From Acuticoccus yangtzensis (lineage in GTDB: Bacteria; Pseudomonadota; Alphaproteobacteria; Rhizobiales; Amorphaceae): 64,000 nt of DNA. The DNA lies in contig NZ_MJUX01000003.1 of assembly GCF_001927245.1 (NCBI RefSeq), positions 248,001 through 312,000 on the forward strand. The letters are read 5' to 3'. Both the position numbers and the translations under genes were made by a program. Positions within the stretch are counted from its first letter, which is position 1, and each line of letters opens with the position of its first letter. This document shows positions 42,762 through 48,039 of the stretch, in pieces. Below the pieces are notes generated by a model that was given only the letters and a program-made list of their open reading frames with translations, ran no database searches and was not told where the DNA came from.

Positions 42762-43433
42762 ATGCGTGAAATCGTGATCGTCGGCTTCCCGAAGTGCGGG
42801 ACTTCGGCGTTGATTCGCCGGTTCGCGGAGGAGGAGGACGTTCACGTTCTTTATGCGGCCAACGGCCATGTGGATGCGCTGTTTCCGGATCGTTCGAATT
42901 TGCCGGCCGACAAAGTCATCGTCCACAAATGCCCCACCTATATTTTGAAGCGCGATTATCTGCTGCGGTTGCGTGAAATGGTCGGGCCGGCGGACATCGT
43001 CGTCTGCTATCGGCGCCTGCCTCGCGTGTTGTTGTCGTGGCACAACATGCACCGGCGTATTGCCCGCACCGGGGTTCAGCCCAACCATTTCGTGCACCGC
43101 GAGCCGGAGTTCTGGGCAAATTGCTCGGTCGATGACTATTATCACAAGAGCGCCCATCGGTTTCGGATGGATATGTTCTTCGACCAGTTGCTGCGGCTGT
43201 TTCCGGACGAGCAGGTGACGGTTGTCGCGCAGGAAAAGATGGCCCGCTCGGTGACGAACGTTGTGAAACTTCTGAAGGGTGAGCCGGAAGTGGAGGACGA
43301 GGCCGAGGCGCACATGGGCTATGCGGACCGGGCGGACGCGGATATTGCGCCCGACGTGCTTGAGATCCTTGAGGAGACCTACCAGCGCTTCCTGGCGCGT
43401 GTGGCGGCGTCGGGCGTGCGGTCGATCACCTGA
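42762..43433 (+). CDS. Sulfotransferase family protein
   Basis: A 223-residue cytosolic protein with the classical PAPS 5'-phosphosulfate loop GFPKCGTSALIRRF (residues 8-21) and the 3'-phosphate region VVCYRRLPRVLLSWHNMH. It belongs to the heparan sulfate/bacterial Stf0-like group rather than to the two paralogues at 22-23 kb, from which it differs throughout. The substrate is unknown. A lone gene between thiL and the cox/pnt genes. Confidence 0.8.
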   Translation: MREIVIVGFPKCGTSALIRRFAEEEDVHVLYAANGHVDALFPDRSNLPADKVIVHKCPTYILKRDYLLRLREMVGPADIVVCYRRLPRVLLSWHNMHRRIARTGVQPNHFVHREPEFWANCSVDDYYHKSAHRFRMDMFFDQLLRLFPDEQVTVVAQEKMARSVTNVVKLLKGEPEVEDEAEAHMGYADRADADIAPDVLEILEETYQRFLARVAASGVRSIT

Positions 43434-43525
43434 GAAAGCCCGACGCGACGGGCACAGCGGACCTTGCCCGAGCCGGACTTATGCAACAGGAGGCGCGCGA
43501 AGGGCCTTGGCTTGCACACGCTTTC

Positions 43526-43554
43526 TTGCCAGCGTTGGCCTCGCCGACTAGAAG
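43526..43554 (+). promoter_or_regulatory. Candidate promoter for the cytochrome oxidase peptide/pnt genes
   Basis: TTGCCA (43526-43531) and TAGAAG (43549-43554) with a 17 bp spacer lie 20 bp before the small CoxIV gene. Visual match only. Confidence 0.4.
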
Positions 43555-43574
43555 GCGCGCAACGGAGGACACCA

Positions 43575-43739
43575 ATGGCCAGCGATCCCACTTTCTCTTT
43601 CGTCGACGAGGACGGAAACCCGCCGCGCACGTCCATGGAGGACCATGTCCGGACGTATGAGGCCTTCATCTCCATCACAAAGTGGGGCATTGGCATTGTT
43701 GTCTTAATCGTCGTGCTTATGGCAATGTTTCTGCTCTAA
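43575..43739 (+). CDS. aa3-type cytochrome c oxidase subunit IV (small membrane peptide)
   Basis: A 54-residue protein: a soluble start (MASDPTFSFVDEDGNPPRTS, MEDHVRTYEAFI) and one C-terminal membrane helix (about residues 34-54). EDHxxTYxxFxxxxKW is the signature of the alphaproteobacterial oxidase subunit IV family. GGAGGA lies 6 bp before the ATG. The gene lies immediately upstream of pntAA, a position I recall as conserved in the group; no other oxidase genes are here. Confidence 0.85.
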   Translation: MASDPTFSFVDEDGNPPRTSMEDHVRTYEAFISITKWGIGIVVLIVVLMAMFLL

Positions 43740-43784
43740 TAAACGACAGTGCCAGCCTAAAAGCTGCGCAGGAGGAGATTGCGC

Positions 43785-44942
43785 GTGAAGATCGCCGTTC
43801 CGGTCGAGACCGAAGACACGCGCGTTGCCGCGACGCCCGACGTCGTGAAGCGCTATGTGGCTGCCGGTGCCGACGTTGCCATTCAAACCGGGGCGGGTGC
43901 GGACTCGCGCATCACCGACCAAGCCTACAAGGACATGGGTGCGACCATCGTCGCATCCGCGGCCGAGGCGGTGGATGGGGCCGATATCATCCTCACTGTT
44001 CGCCGCCCGAGCGCCGAGGTGCTGGGGGCGGCGAAGTCCGGTGCCTTCATCATCGGCGCGTTGGACCCCTATGGCGACCGCGAGGGGCTGCAGGCGATGG
44101 CCGATGCGGGCCTTTCGGCGGTGGCGATGGAGCTGATGCCGCGCATCACCCGCGCCCAGTCGATGGACATCCTGTCCTCGCAGGCCAACCTCGCCGGCTA
44201 CCAAGCGGTGATCGACGCGGCGGCGACCTATGACCGCGCGATCCCGATGATGATGACCGCGGCGGGCACGGTTCCGGCGGCTCGGATCTTCATCATGGGT
44301 GCCGGTGTGGCGGGTCTTCAGGCGATCGCCACGGCGCGCCGTCTGGGTGGCGCGGTGTCGGCGACGGACGTGCGGCCGGCGGCGAAGGAGCAGGTCGCCT
44401 CGCTGGGTGCCAAGTTCATCGCGGTCGAGAACGAGGAGTTCAAGGCGGCGGAGACGGCTGGCGGATATGCCAAGGAAATGTCCGAGGACTACCGCAAGCA
44501 GCAGGCCGAGCTGGTGGCCGCGCACATCGCCAAGCAGGACATCGTGGTGACGACGGCGCTGATTCCGGGCCGTCCTGCACCCAAGCTGATCACGGCCGAG
44601 ATGGTCGCGTCGATGAACCCGGGGTCCGTGATCGTCGACCTCGCGGTCGAGCGTGGCGGCAACGTCGAGGGATCGGTCGCGGGCGAGGTCGTGACGGTGG
44701 GTCCGGCGACGATCATCGGTTACCGCAACGTTCCGGGGCGGATCGCGGCTTCGGCCTCGCTACTCTACGCCAAGAACCTCTACACCTTCATCGACACGGT
44801 GCTTCTCGACAAGGAGAAGGCTTTCGCGCCGAAATGGGACGACGAGCTTTTGACGGCGACCCTTTTGACGCGTGACGGCTCGCTGGTTCACCCGAACTAT
44901 GGCGGGACGAAGCCGGCGGCGATGGCTGCGTCGGCGAGCTGA
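43785..44942 (+). CDS. pntAA: NAD(P) transhydrogenase subunit alpha part 1 (soluble NAD domain)
   Basis: A 385-residue domain I of the proton-translocating transhydrogenase. It begins MKIAVPVETEDTRVAATPDVVKRY and includes the NAD-binding loop MGAGVAGLQAIATARRLGG with the following Asp. It is separated from the membrane part, the Rhodospirillum-type three-gene form. GTG 43785 is chosen because GGAGGAG ends 7 bp upstream; the TTG two codons earlier is too close. The operon continues with pntAB, a small ORF and pntB. Confidence 0.93.
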   Translation: MKIAVPVETEDTRVAATPDVVKRYVAAGADVAIQTGAGADSRITDQAYKDMGATIVASAAEAVDGADIILTVRRPSAEVLGAAKSGAFIIGALDPYGDREGLQAMADAGLSAVAMELMPRITRAQSMDILSSQANLAGYQAVIDAAATYDRAIPMMMTAAGTVPAARIFIMGAGVAGLQAIATARRLGGAVSATDVRPAAKEQVASLGAKFIAVENEEFKAAETAGGYAKEMSEDYRKQQAELVAAHIAKQDIVVTTALIPGRPAPKLITAEMVASMNPGSVIVDLAVERGGNVEGSVAGEVVTVGPATIIGYRNVPGRIAASASLLYAKNLYTFIDTVLLDKEKAFAPKWDDELLTATLLTRDGSLVHPNYGGTKPAAMAASAS

Positions 44943-45008
44943 ACTGACTGACCCGATTATCGAGAGCGCTGGCTGTCCGGGCCGGATGCGCGATCCAAGG
45001 AAAAGAGC

Positions 45009-45530
45009 ATGAACGAGGACAACGCCGGCGCCGCGATGGAAGCGGCCCGCACCGCCGCAGAGGCTGCCGCGCGCTCCAGCGAGGCGGCGCAGGCGGCCAC
45101 CGCTGCGGCCCAGGCGGCGACTCAGGCGGCGGATGCGTCGATGGCCGCCTCCCAGGCGGCGGACGCGGCCGGCCATGCGGCGATGCAGGCCGATGCCTTG
45201 GCCGTCGCGGCGAGCGCGGCGACGGCGGGCGCGATCGACCCGACGATTTTCCGCCTCGCGATCTTCGTGCTGGCCATTTTCGTCGGCTACTATGTTGTGT
45301 GGTCGGTGACGCCGGCGCTGCACACTCCGCTGATGAGCGTCACCAACGCCATTTCGTCGGTGATCGTGGTGGGGGCGCTTTTGGCGACGGGCGTCTCCTT
45401 CGCCGAGGCGGACGGGGCGCTGTGGGCGAAGATCTTCGGCTTCTTCGCGCTGATCCTGGCGTCGGTGAACATCTTCGGCGGCTTCCTCGTCACCCAGCGC
45501 ATGCTGGCCATGTACAAGAAGAAGCGATGA
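45009..45530 (+). CDS. pntAB: NAD(P) transhydrogenase subunit alpha part 2 (membrane), with Ala-rich N-terminus
   Basis: A 173-residue membrane subunit. Residues about 80-173 have the expected helices ([67 protein letters not shown]). The first 75 residues are almost only Ala, Gln, Ser, Asp and Met in a repeating AAxAA pattern ([20 protein letters not shown]), probably a long helix. Usual PntAB proteins are about 100-140 residues, so this extension is unusual in length. The stop forms an ATGA overlap with a 35-codon ORF. Confidence 0.9.
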
Positions 45531-45634
45531 CCTTGCCCGCCCTGCGGTCCGCCGAGGCGGCCCGCGCGTTCCGATTGACCGCAGCCGCGCATGATGTGGC
45601 GGCCAAGACCAAGAAGCGACTGGACGAGCAATGA
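45527..45634 (+). CDS. 35-residue ORF coupled between pntAB and pntB
   Basis: A short frame starting [19 protein letters not shown] and ending [11 protein letters not shown]. Its ATG overlaps the pntAB stop (ATGA at 45527-45530) and its TGA overlaps the pntB start (ATGA at 45631-45634), so it exactly bridges the 100 bp between the two genes. Neither it nor pntB has a good ribosome binding site: upstream of pntB only GGACGAG is seen. This fits a translated linker that hands ribosomes to pntB. The peptide is basic/amphipathic without a membrane helix. It may be a mere coupling device or a real microprotein. Confidence 0.6.
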
Positions 45635-47037
45635 GCCCCAACATCGCAGCGATCCTCTACCTCGTTTCCGGGGTGCTCTTCATTCTGGCGCTCCGCGGCC
45701 TTTCGCACCCGGAGACGAGCCGCCAGGGCAACCGCTTCGGCATGATCGGCATGACGATCGCGGTGCTGACCACGCTGATCTCGGCGGGTCCGGACGTGTT
45801 CGGCTGGATCCTGATCATCGCCGGTCTCGGCATCGGCGGCGGCATCGGCGCGGTGATGGCGAAACGCATCCCGATGACCGCGATGCCGCAACTCGTGGCG
45901 GCCTTCCACTCGCTGGTGGGTCTGGCGGCGGTGTTCGTGGCTGCGGGCGCGCTCTATGCGCCGGAGGCCTTCGGCATCGGCACGCCGTTCCACATCAAGG
46001 GCCTGTCGCTGGTCGAGATGGCGCTTGGCGCCGCGATCGGCGCGCTGACCTTCACGGGATCGGTGATCGCCTTCGCCAAGCTGGACGGGCGCATGTCGGG
46101 CAAGCCGATCCTTCTGCCGGCGCGTCACCTGATCAACGGCGGCCTCTTCGTGCTGCTGATCCTCCTCATGGTCTGGTTCGTGGGCGCGGACGAGCAGGTG
46201 CTGCAGCAGCGCTTCCTGTTCTGGCTCATCGTGCTGGCGGCGCTGGCGCTGGGCGGTCTCATCATCGTTCCGATCGGCGGCGCCGACATGCCGGTGGTCG
46301 TGTCGATGCTGAACTCCTATTCGGGCTGGGCTGCTGCCGGTATCGGCTTCACGCTTGGTAACACGGCGCTGATCATCACCGGTGCTCTGGTGGGGTCCTC
46401 GGGTGCGATCCTGTCCTACATCATGTGTAAGGGCATGAACCGGTCCTTCATCTCGGTCATTCTCGGCGGCTTCGGCGGCGAGAGCGGCGGTCCTGCGGCC
46501 GACATGGGCGACAAGACGGTGAAGATGGGCTCGGCCGAGGACGCGGCCTATCTGATGAAGAACGCGTCGTCGGTCATCATCGTGCCCGGTTACGGCATGG
46601 CGGTGGCGCAGGCCCAGCACGCACTGCGCGAAATGGCGGACGCGCTGAAGGCCGAGGGGGTGAGCGTGAAGTATGCGATCCACCCTGTGGCGGGCCGTAT
46701 GCCGGGGCATATGAACGTGCTCCTGGCCGAAGCGAACGTGCCCTATGAAGACGTGTTCGAGCTGGAGGACATCAACTCCGACTTTGCGCAGACGGACGTC
46801 GCCTATGTGATCGGCGCGAACGACGTGACGAACCCGGCCGCGCGGGACGATCCGTCATCGCCGATCTACGGCATGCCGATCCTGGATGTGGACAAGGCGA
46901 AGACGGTGCTCTTCTCCAAGCGCTCGCTGGGCTCGGGTTATGCTGGCATCGACAATGCGTTGTTCTACAAGGACAACAACATGATGCTGCTCGGCGACGC
47001 GAAGAAGATGGTCGAGGAGATCGTCAAGGCGCTCTGA
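45631..47037 (+). CDS. pntB: NAD(P) transhydrogenase subunit beta
   Basis: A 468-residue subunit with about eight membrane helices (residues 1-265) and the soluble NADP-binding domain III at the C-terminus (about 290-468). Domain III has VPGYGMAVAQAQHALREMA, HPVAGRMPGHMNVLLAEANVPY, VIGANDVTNPAA and GYAGIDNALFYKDNNMMLLGDAKK, all hallmarks. With PntAA and PntAB it couples proton flow to NADPH formation. It begins in an ATGA overlap with the preceding 35-codon ORF. Confidence 0.95.
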   Translation: MSPNIAAILYLVSGVLFILALRGLSHPETSRQGNRFGMIGMTIAVLTTLISAGPDVFGWILIIAGLGIGGGIGAVMAKRIPMTAMPQLVAAFHSLVGLAAVFVAAGALYAPEAFGIGTPFHIKGLSLVEMALGAAIGALTFTGSVIAFAKLDGRMSGKPILLPARHLINGGLFVLLILLMVWFVGADEQVLQQRFLFWLIVLAALALGGLIIVPIGGADMPVVVSMLNSYSGWAAAGIGFTLGNTALIITGALVGSSGAILSYIMCKGMNRSFISVILGGFGGESGGPAADMGDKTVKMGSAEDAAYLMKNASSVIIVPGYGMAVAQAQHALREMADALKAEGVSVKYAIHPVAGRMPGHMNVLLAEANVPYEDVFELEDINSDFAQTDVAYVIGANDVTNPAARDDPSSPIYGMPILDVDKAKTVLFSKRSLGSGYAGIDNALFYKDNNMMLLGDAKKMVEEIVKAL

Positions 47038-47070
47038 CGGCATCTCATCGACTGGAAGGACTTCCCGACT

Positions 47071-48039
47071 ATGCGCGTTGTGACGATCGTTTGCCCGCCT
47101 GCCTTGAGGGAGCGGCTGCCGGCCGCTCTCGGCCCCGATGTGGAGGTGGTGACCTTCCCGCAGGAGGCCTGCAACACGGCCGAGCACGACGGGGACTTCC
47201 GACCCGACGACGTCGTGATCTCGATGGAGATGCGCCGGCCGGGCGGGATGACGCCGAAGCTGGGGCTGGTCCAGCTCTCGGGCGCGGGGACGGACCGGAT
47301 CGACCTTGCGACGGTGGACCCCTCCATTCCGGTCTGCAACGTCTTCGATCATGAGATCCCGATCGCCGAATATGTGATCGCGACGATGCTGGAGTGGCAG
47401 ATCCGGCTGGGGGCGATGCGGCAGGGCTTCACGGCGGAAACGTGGGCGTCGCGGACGGCGGCCCCCGCGACTCACGGTGAGCTTTACGGCAAGACGCTGG
47501 GTGTCGTCGGGTTCGGGCGCATCGGCAAGGAGGCGGCTGTGCGGGCCTCGGCCTTCGGGATGAAGGTGATCGCGGTGGCGCGGCGGCCCGATGGCGGCCC
47601 GGCCGACGAGGTGCACCCGACCGAGGCGCTGGCCGACGTGCTGCCACGCTGCGATTTCGTTCTCGACACGTTGCCGCTGACCGAGGCGACGCGCGGTCTG
47701 TTCGACGCCACGATGCTGGCGGCGATGAAGCCGACGGGCGTGATCATCAATGTCGGGCGCGGCGGGACGATCGACGAGGAGGCGCTGTTCGAGGCGCTGT
47801 CCAAGAAGACGATCGGCGGCGCGATCATTGACGTGTGGTATCAGTATCCGCGTGAGCCGGGCGAAGCGCCGCCGCCGTCGCGGTTCGACTTCTTCAGCCT
47901 CGACAATGTGATCATGACGCCGCATGCGTCGGCGATCACCGACGCCCTGTGGGACCGGCGCGCGGCGACGATTGCCGAGAATGTCCGGCGGCTGCAGGCG
48001 GGCGAGCCGCTTTTGAACGTGGTCCGCGCGGCGCAGTAG
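47071..48039 (+). CDS. D-isomer-specific 2-hydroxyacid dehydrogenase family protein
   Basis: A 322-residue NAD(P) enzyme. The Rossmann loop is VVGFGRIGKEAA (about residue 150), and the substrate/catalytic blocks are NVGRGGTIDEEALFEAL and MTPHASAITDALWDRR with the catalytic His; the usual Arg lies before LDTLPLTEATRGL. Candidate substrates are glyoxylate/hydroxypyruvate, phosphoglycerate or formate relatives; sequence alone does not decide. It follows pntB by 33 bp, possibly a readthrough neighbour supplying or using NAD(P)H. Confidence 0.85.
   Translation: MRVVTIVCPPALRERLPAALGPDVEVVTFPQEACNTAEHDGDFRPDDVVISMEMRRPGGMTPKLGLVQLSGAGTDRIDLATVDPSIPVCNVFDHEIPIAEYVIATMLEWQIRLGAMRQGFTAETWASRTAAPATHGELYGKTLGVVGFGRIGKEAAVRASAFGMKVIAVARRPDGGPADEVHPTEALADVLPRCDFVLDTLPLTEATRGLFDATMLAAMKPTGVIINVGRGGTIDEEALFEALSKKTIGGAIIDVWYQYPREPGEAPPPSRFDFFSLDNVIMTPHASAITDALWDRRAATIAENVRRLQAGEPLLNVVRAAQ

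Follow-up and report, generated by a model that had tools for sequence, protein, structure and literature searches.

In termination-reinitiation coupling, the stop codon of one gene and the start codon of the next overlap by 4 nt as ATGA, with genes for subunits of one complex among the cases described (PMC10666635; PMC6728339). The accessible text of the former study reports that short overlaps are enriched among genes for subunits of one complex, and that in E. coli reporters a stop-to-start distance of 38 nt cuts reinitiation by 80–90% in two gene pairs and abolishes it in a third (PMC10666635). In mycobacteria, small ORFs joined to the next gene by RTGA have been reported that, in the example given, keep this linkage and not their peptide sequence, and a role in ribosome delivery has been proposed for them (Shell et al. 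2015, PMC4633059). Mycobacterial interspersed repetitive units (MIRU) are another case: where such DNA is inserted at the start of a gene, it contains an ORF that stays coupled with 4-nt spacing, and expression of the gene is reported to be little disturbed (review, PMC12548453). Small ORFs inside operons that, on being translated, benefit the following gene in cis are represented by mgtQ, between mgtC and mgtB (PMC8092293), and by the minigene of axe-txe (PMC8708949). A survey of predicted intergenic small ORFs in Enterobacteriaceae states that, where the downstream gene is co-directed, about 13% of the ORFs end within 10 nt of that gene's start; where the upstream gene is co-directed, about 13% start within 10 nt of that gene's stop (PMC11188072).

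Here we describe a 35-codon ORF that is joined to both of its neighbours in the transhydrogenase operon of Acuticoccus yangtzensis. The window, the whole stretch of DNA analysed, is 64,000 nt long and carries the operon pntAA-pntAB-pntB at 43785–47037. PntAB and PntB are subunits of one enzyme, and the nearest named PntB proteins among the matches listed are from Hyphomicrobiales (e.g., Rhizobium, Nitratireductor), with identity of up to 78%. The features are as follows.

43785..44942, plus strand: pntAA, transhydrogenase alpha-1, first gene of the operon (AlaDh_PNT_N, AlaDh_PNT_C; PRK09424)
45009..45530, plus strand: pntAB, transhydrogenase alpha-2, upstream neighbour (PNTB_4TM, E 6.5e-35)
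45527..45530, plus strand: ATGA in which the pntAB stop (TGA, 45528–45530) overlaps the start of the relay ORF
45527..45634, plus strand: 35-codon relay ORF, translation of 35 residues without internal stop
45610..45630, plus strand: weak Shine-Dalgarno (SD)-like site only, before pntB (best duplex −3.0 kcal/mol)
45631..45634, plus strand: ATGA in which the relay stop (TGA, 45632–45634) overlaps the pntB start
45631..47037, plus strand: pntB, transhydrogenase beta, downstream neighbour (PNTB, E 6.5e-195; PRK09444)

The pntAA start was assumed to be GTG, with a TTG at 43779 as a possible alternative. The pntAB gene ends in CGA TGA, and the SD duplex before its start has an energy of −5.2 kcal/mol. 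Upstream of pntAA, beside the transhydrogenase operon, a 54-codon gene (43575–43739, plus strand) matches COX4_pro_2, the subunit IV of bacterial aa3 cytochrome oxidase (E 2e-9).

The ORF thus shares with mgtQ and the axe-txe minigene its position inside an operon. However, mgtQ has a strong SD of its own, starts 51 nt after mgtC and is reported to act through stem-loops and acidic residues (PMC8092293), the axe-txe element has two codons (PMC8708949), and the accessible accounts of the two do not describe them as bridging stop to start on both sides (PMC8092293, PMC8708949). The mycobacterial ORFs, as described in the available part of the report, come first on leaderless transcripts and are coupled downstream (PMC4633059), whereas the ORF in the window has an operon gene on either side and is coupled to both. 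Judged from the sequence, it does not begin a leaderless transcript, its start lying inside the end of pntAB.

The preliminary description of this locus had noted that the ORF fits the gap exactly with an ATGA overlap at each end, and this is correct to the base. Its further argument, that a frame arising by chance would seldom fit both neighbours, was too strong. In the null used here, spacers were shuffled with preservation of dinucleotides and with random phase, NTGA being given at both ends, and the window spacer bridged in 0.30 of the trials. For this reason, the ORF of the window alone is weak evidence, and the case becomes strong only when the relatives are added.

The junction was followed through a sample of eight genomes of the genus. 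Both genes are present in seven of them, PntB of the six relatives being 84–91% identical to that of the window; in the eighth (G001, 89% complete), no match for pntAB or pntB was found at the limits used. The spacers between pntAB and pntB measure 100, 181, 111, 109, 58, 142 and 91 nt, so that all lengths differ, and they are mostly unalignable, having little in common by eye beyond roughly the last 20–25 nt, mainly among near relatives. Nevertheless, the relay geometry, with 4-nt NTGA overlaps at both ends, is kept in 7/7: a start codon overlaps the pntAB stop in every genome (ATGA in four, GTGA in three), and ATGA stands at every pntB start. A single open frame of 21–62 codons joins the two genes in six of the seven. 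In the remaining one (locus L004, genome G005), two ORFs are chained, the first of 15 codons ending in ATGA and the second running 24 codons to the ATGA of pntB. At L005 (G007), pntB has two tandem ATG codons, the first of which is reached by the relay, and both were allowed as starts in the data and in the null. The bridging peptides differ in length (15–62 aa) and in sequence across the seven genomes. As in the mycobacterial ORFs, position and RTGA linkage are kept between species while the peptide varies, and the overlapping stops and starts are those of termination-reinitiation; unlike the single ATGA overlaps in the accessible text of PMC10666635, two or three occur here in series and span 58–181 nt. 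The preliminary description had offered a translational coupler as one reading and had named the absence of conservation in close relatives as the result that would speak against it. The opposite was observed, since the frame and the overlaps are kept in all seven genomes with the junction though the spacer sequence is not.

Several other ways of accounting for the junction were considered and set aside. No in-frame start codon that would place the start of PntB further upstream is present in the spacer, apart from the tandem ATG of L005, and no shared slippery heptamer indicating a frameshift fusion of PntAB and PntB was seen by eye in the junction alignment. A structured RNA was not indicated: a scan of 43500–47200 against Rfam had no match at E up to 1, and fold z-scores were near zero. 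When sigma-70-like sites were scored, no promoter was found in or near the spacer, the one site found lying at 43113–43142. A weak terminator-like hairpin occurs at 45658–45675 (plus strand), where pntB begins; 43000–47200 contains three sites of this kind as compared with 2.6 in shuffles, and the hairpin is probably due to chance. As for a mobile repeat of the MIRU type, the window spacer, the only one searched, has no second copy in the eight genus genomes (best other match listed, 24 nt, E 4.8e-4). The MIRU elements are described in the available part of the review as repeats that are apparently mobile (PMC12548453), whereas no repeat of the window spacer was found in these genomes and the spacers vary between species.

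Chance is the first reading to be weighed against a selected geometry. A GC-rich spacer contains few stops, which makes open frames cheap, and between a gene ending in TGA and one starting in ATGA such a frame could bridge by accident, in a phase that was perhaps inherited. Each genome taken alone indeed bridges with a probability of 0.15–0.31, ends given. The joint probability that all seven bridge is, however, 4.0e-5, with the genomes treated as independent although phase may be shared by descent. On the same assumption of independence, it is 1.35e-4 for the six relatives without the window and 5.3e-4 when the nearest relative of the window is left out as well. Composition was also compared; the genes called in the relative G003 served to train a hexamer model, and shuffles kept open in the same frame served as the reference. 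The z-scores of the relay frames were 3.1, 1.9, −0.2 and −0.2 (both ORFs of L004), 1.0, −0.3, 1.9 and 2.8, and the frame was coding-like beyond its openness over the eight ORFs (Stouffer z 3.5). Four of the eight ORFs are coding-like individually (p 0.005–0.04), and the other four are not (z −0.3 to 1.0). With the weak SD of pntB accompanying the relay, these results make an accidental origin unlikely.

The window ORF is coding-like in composition (z 3.1), was also called as a gene by our home-made gene caller and sits inside the operon, and the preliminary description had raised the possibility that it encodes an uncharacterised microprotein of the transhydrogenase. This reading was not borne out. 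The relay peptide has no match in Pfam, NCBIfam, PHROGs, PDB sequences or plasmids, no relative of it was found in any of 60 other genomes at E up to 0.01, and the peptides at this place in the seven genus genomes are unlike in both length and sequence, except for a short 3' end common to the nearest relatives. A functional small protein is accordingly highly improbable.

The initiation signals were then compared. In each of the seven genus genomes, the strongest SD duplex ahead of pntB lies between −3.0 and −3.5 kcal/mol, while the mean is −6.35 kcal/mol for 131 outgroup junctions and −6.45 kcal/mol for the 91 of them with at least 60% identity over the N-terminal part of PntB. The genus sites are weaker than those of the 91 outgroups (Mann-Whitney p 7e-5), in agreement with the preliminary description, which had stated that pntB has no strong ribosome binding site. 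The SD-like site at the relay start is likewise weak (−1.6 to −4.3 kcal/mol), as expected if the ribosome that ends pntAB also feeds the relay start.

A ribosome translating the ORF might also act by opening the RNA over the pntB start, rather than by being handed over to it. This is a known model of coupling, as given in the available part of a review (PMC12548453), and it would be served by the same ORF geometry. The exact 4-nt overlap would not be needed for it, however, and the pntB start is not unusually folded, with fold z-scores of −0.62 to 0.67 around it at six junctions (L006 was left out). Opening the start region moreover takes less energy in the genus (mean 9.9) than it does in the 91 outgroups (14.6). 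Because the start is neither unusually folded nor harder to open, unfolding is not favoured over hand-over, and we regard it as very unlikely to be the main role.

The preferred reading is that the 35-codon ORF acts in cis as a translated relay, by which pntB stays coupled to pntAB although the spacer has expanded; from the sequence comparisons we put its probability at roughly 0.7. Directly observed are the geometry in seven genus genomes, the absence of sequence conservation, the coding-like composition in about half of the ORFs and the weak SD of pntB. From the E. coli result with 38 nt, coupling of pntB to pntAB would be expected to fail over spacers of 58–181 nt if ribosomes did not translate across them. 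Ribosomes terminating pntAB at its TGA would restart on the overlapping ATG or GTG, translate a peptide that has no conserved sequence and stop at the next ATGA. Those ending the relay would then restart on pntB, whose SD site is weak. On this reading pntB would depend on the relay, and selection for balanced subunits may be what keeps it. The likely history is that a closely spaced coupled pair came first, comparable to the 13-nt gap between pntAB and pntB in the sister-genus genome G009, and that the spacer grew later, its growth being tolerated as long as it stayed translatable.

The pntAA-pntAB junction of the same seven genomes served as an internal control. There, a relay is present in 1/7 (L007), with gaps of 66, 71, 68, 10, 10, 43 and 12 nt, and the SD of pntAB is −4.2 to −6.5 kcal/mol; the pntAB starts in this control were picked by the best fit to length and SD. 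For the outgroups, L141 was dropped from the junction set, its contig ending before pntAB, and L001 and L112–L118 were dropped as duplicates of L002–L008. A start codon overlaps the pntAB stop in 42/131 outgroup junctions, and ATGA stands at pntB in 54/131. Gaps of 25–300 nt occur in 19/131, five of which have NTGA at both ends. Two of these five are relays (L105, L088) and one (L047) is neither a relay nor close to one. At the other two, from other lineages (L016, gap 96 nt; L046, gap 42 nt), a near-relay is seen: an ORF starts on the pntAB stop, and its end falls 1 nt short of the pntB ATG. The outgroup relays are too few for support. At L088, a Brevundimonas record with a gap of 276 nt, the link consists of an 88-codon frame resembling a membrane-protein gene plus 6 codons. 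A 206-codon frame that also resembles a membrane-protein gene lies between pntAB and pntB at L050, a Caulobacteraceae record with a gap of 623 nt.

Four further junctions, chosen for having a relay in G003, were examined in the family; two were drawn from a set of six such junctions and two more from the 24 relays of the genome-wide count given below. At def-fmt (L188–L195, L190 being the window's genome), relays of 24, 27, 26 and 22 codons with different sequences are found in 4/8 genus genomes, a direct 4-nt overlap in 2/8 and neither in 2/8. The joint probability of the four relays, ends given, is 0.007, or about 0.02 once G003, through which the locus was selected, is left out; their hexamer z-scores of 0.2–1.0 are not significant (Stouffer 1.3). 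Neither of two sister-genus genomes has a def-fmt relay, the stops being TAA or TAG and the candidate start gaps 42–77 nt. At the histidine kinase-tsaE junction (L292–L301), where starts are uncertain, G003 has a 31-codon relay, 6/8 genus genomes have a candidate direct 4-nt overlap, and G000 has neither; in the sister genus, one of two genomes has a 19-codon relay (L300). The amiC-amiR relay is present in 1/3 genomes (G003) and is not kept. At comF-grxC, G003 has a relay, G005 has one to an alternative GTG start, and the other 8 of 10 family genomes have none. In two of the four junctions, overlap and relay thus look interconvertible from these comparisons, and the other two look chance-like, their lack of conservation being a point for the accidental reading.

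A genome-wide count was made on 2.4 Mb of G003 with the home-made gene caller (90% coding; commonest spacing, the 4-nt overlap). Among 699 co-directed pairs with gaps of 25–300 nt, 55 have NTGA at both ends, and 24 of these are relays as compared with 13.2 (sd 3.1) or 14.0 (sd 3.2) expected. Two of the 24 resemble real small genes (511772–512016 and 2217927–2218109 of G003:C1). Sorted by first codon, relays number 8/11 for ATGA (expected 2.7), 12/33 for GTGA (7.9) and 4/11 for TTGA (2.6); the ATGA excess is strong and fits translation of these frames. Among the controls, TAA/TAG gave 17/75 (expected 17.0), and CTGA, which should not initiate, gave 45/142 (34.1, z 2.2). This mild CTGA excess, which again speaks for chance, is a warning that the shuffles somewhat understate openness. 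Phase alone is a weak signal in G003, the relay phase being found in 24/55. Taken from sequence counts of this kind, the evidence for relays as a genus-wide habit is mixed.

Coupling with a conserved architecture and an unconserved sequence is known from mycobacteria; double-ended coupling between operon genes looks like a new form of it. In the open-licence literature, as far as its accessible text goes, we found no non-repeated ORF coupled at both ends between operon genes, genus-wide and with unconserved sequence. A broader proposal, which we consider possible and on balance doubtful, is that translated relays are a general and evolvable means of preserving the coupling of gene pairs in this genus as the DNA between them lengthens. 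Growth would survive if it leaves an open frame with NTGA at both ends, seemingly non-coding spacers would be selected for phase and openness only, and a given junction could exist either as a direct overlap or as a relay, def-fmt being an example and histidine kinase-tsaE perhaps another.

If the preferred reading of a translated relay between pntAB and pntB is true, a filler-like stretch with an unconserved peptide would be selected for being translated and not for its encoded product. This would bear on how small ORFs from ribosome profiling are judged, as footprints could then arise without a functional peptide. The junctions would also show, as a natural experiment, over what distance coupled translation can be maintained, and they suggest how operons may tolerate the growth of DNA between coupled genes.
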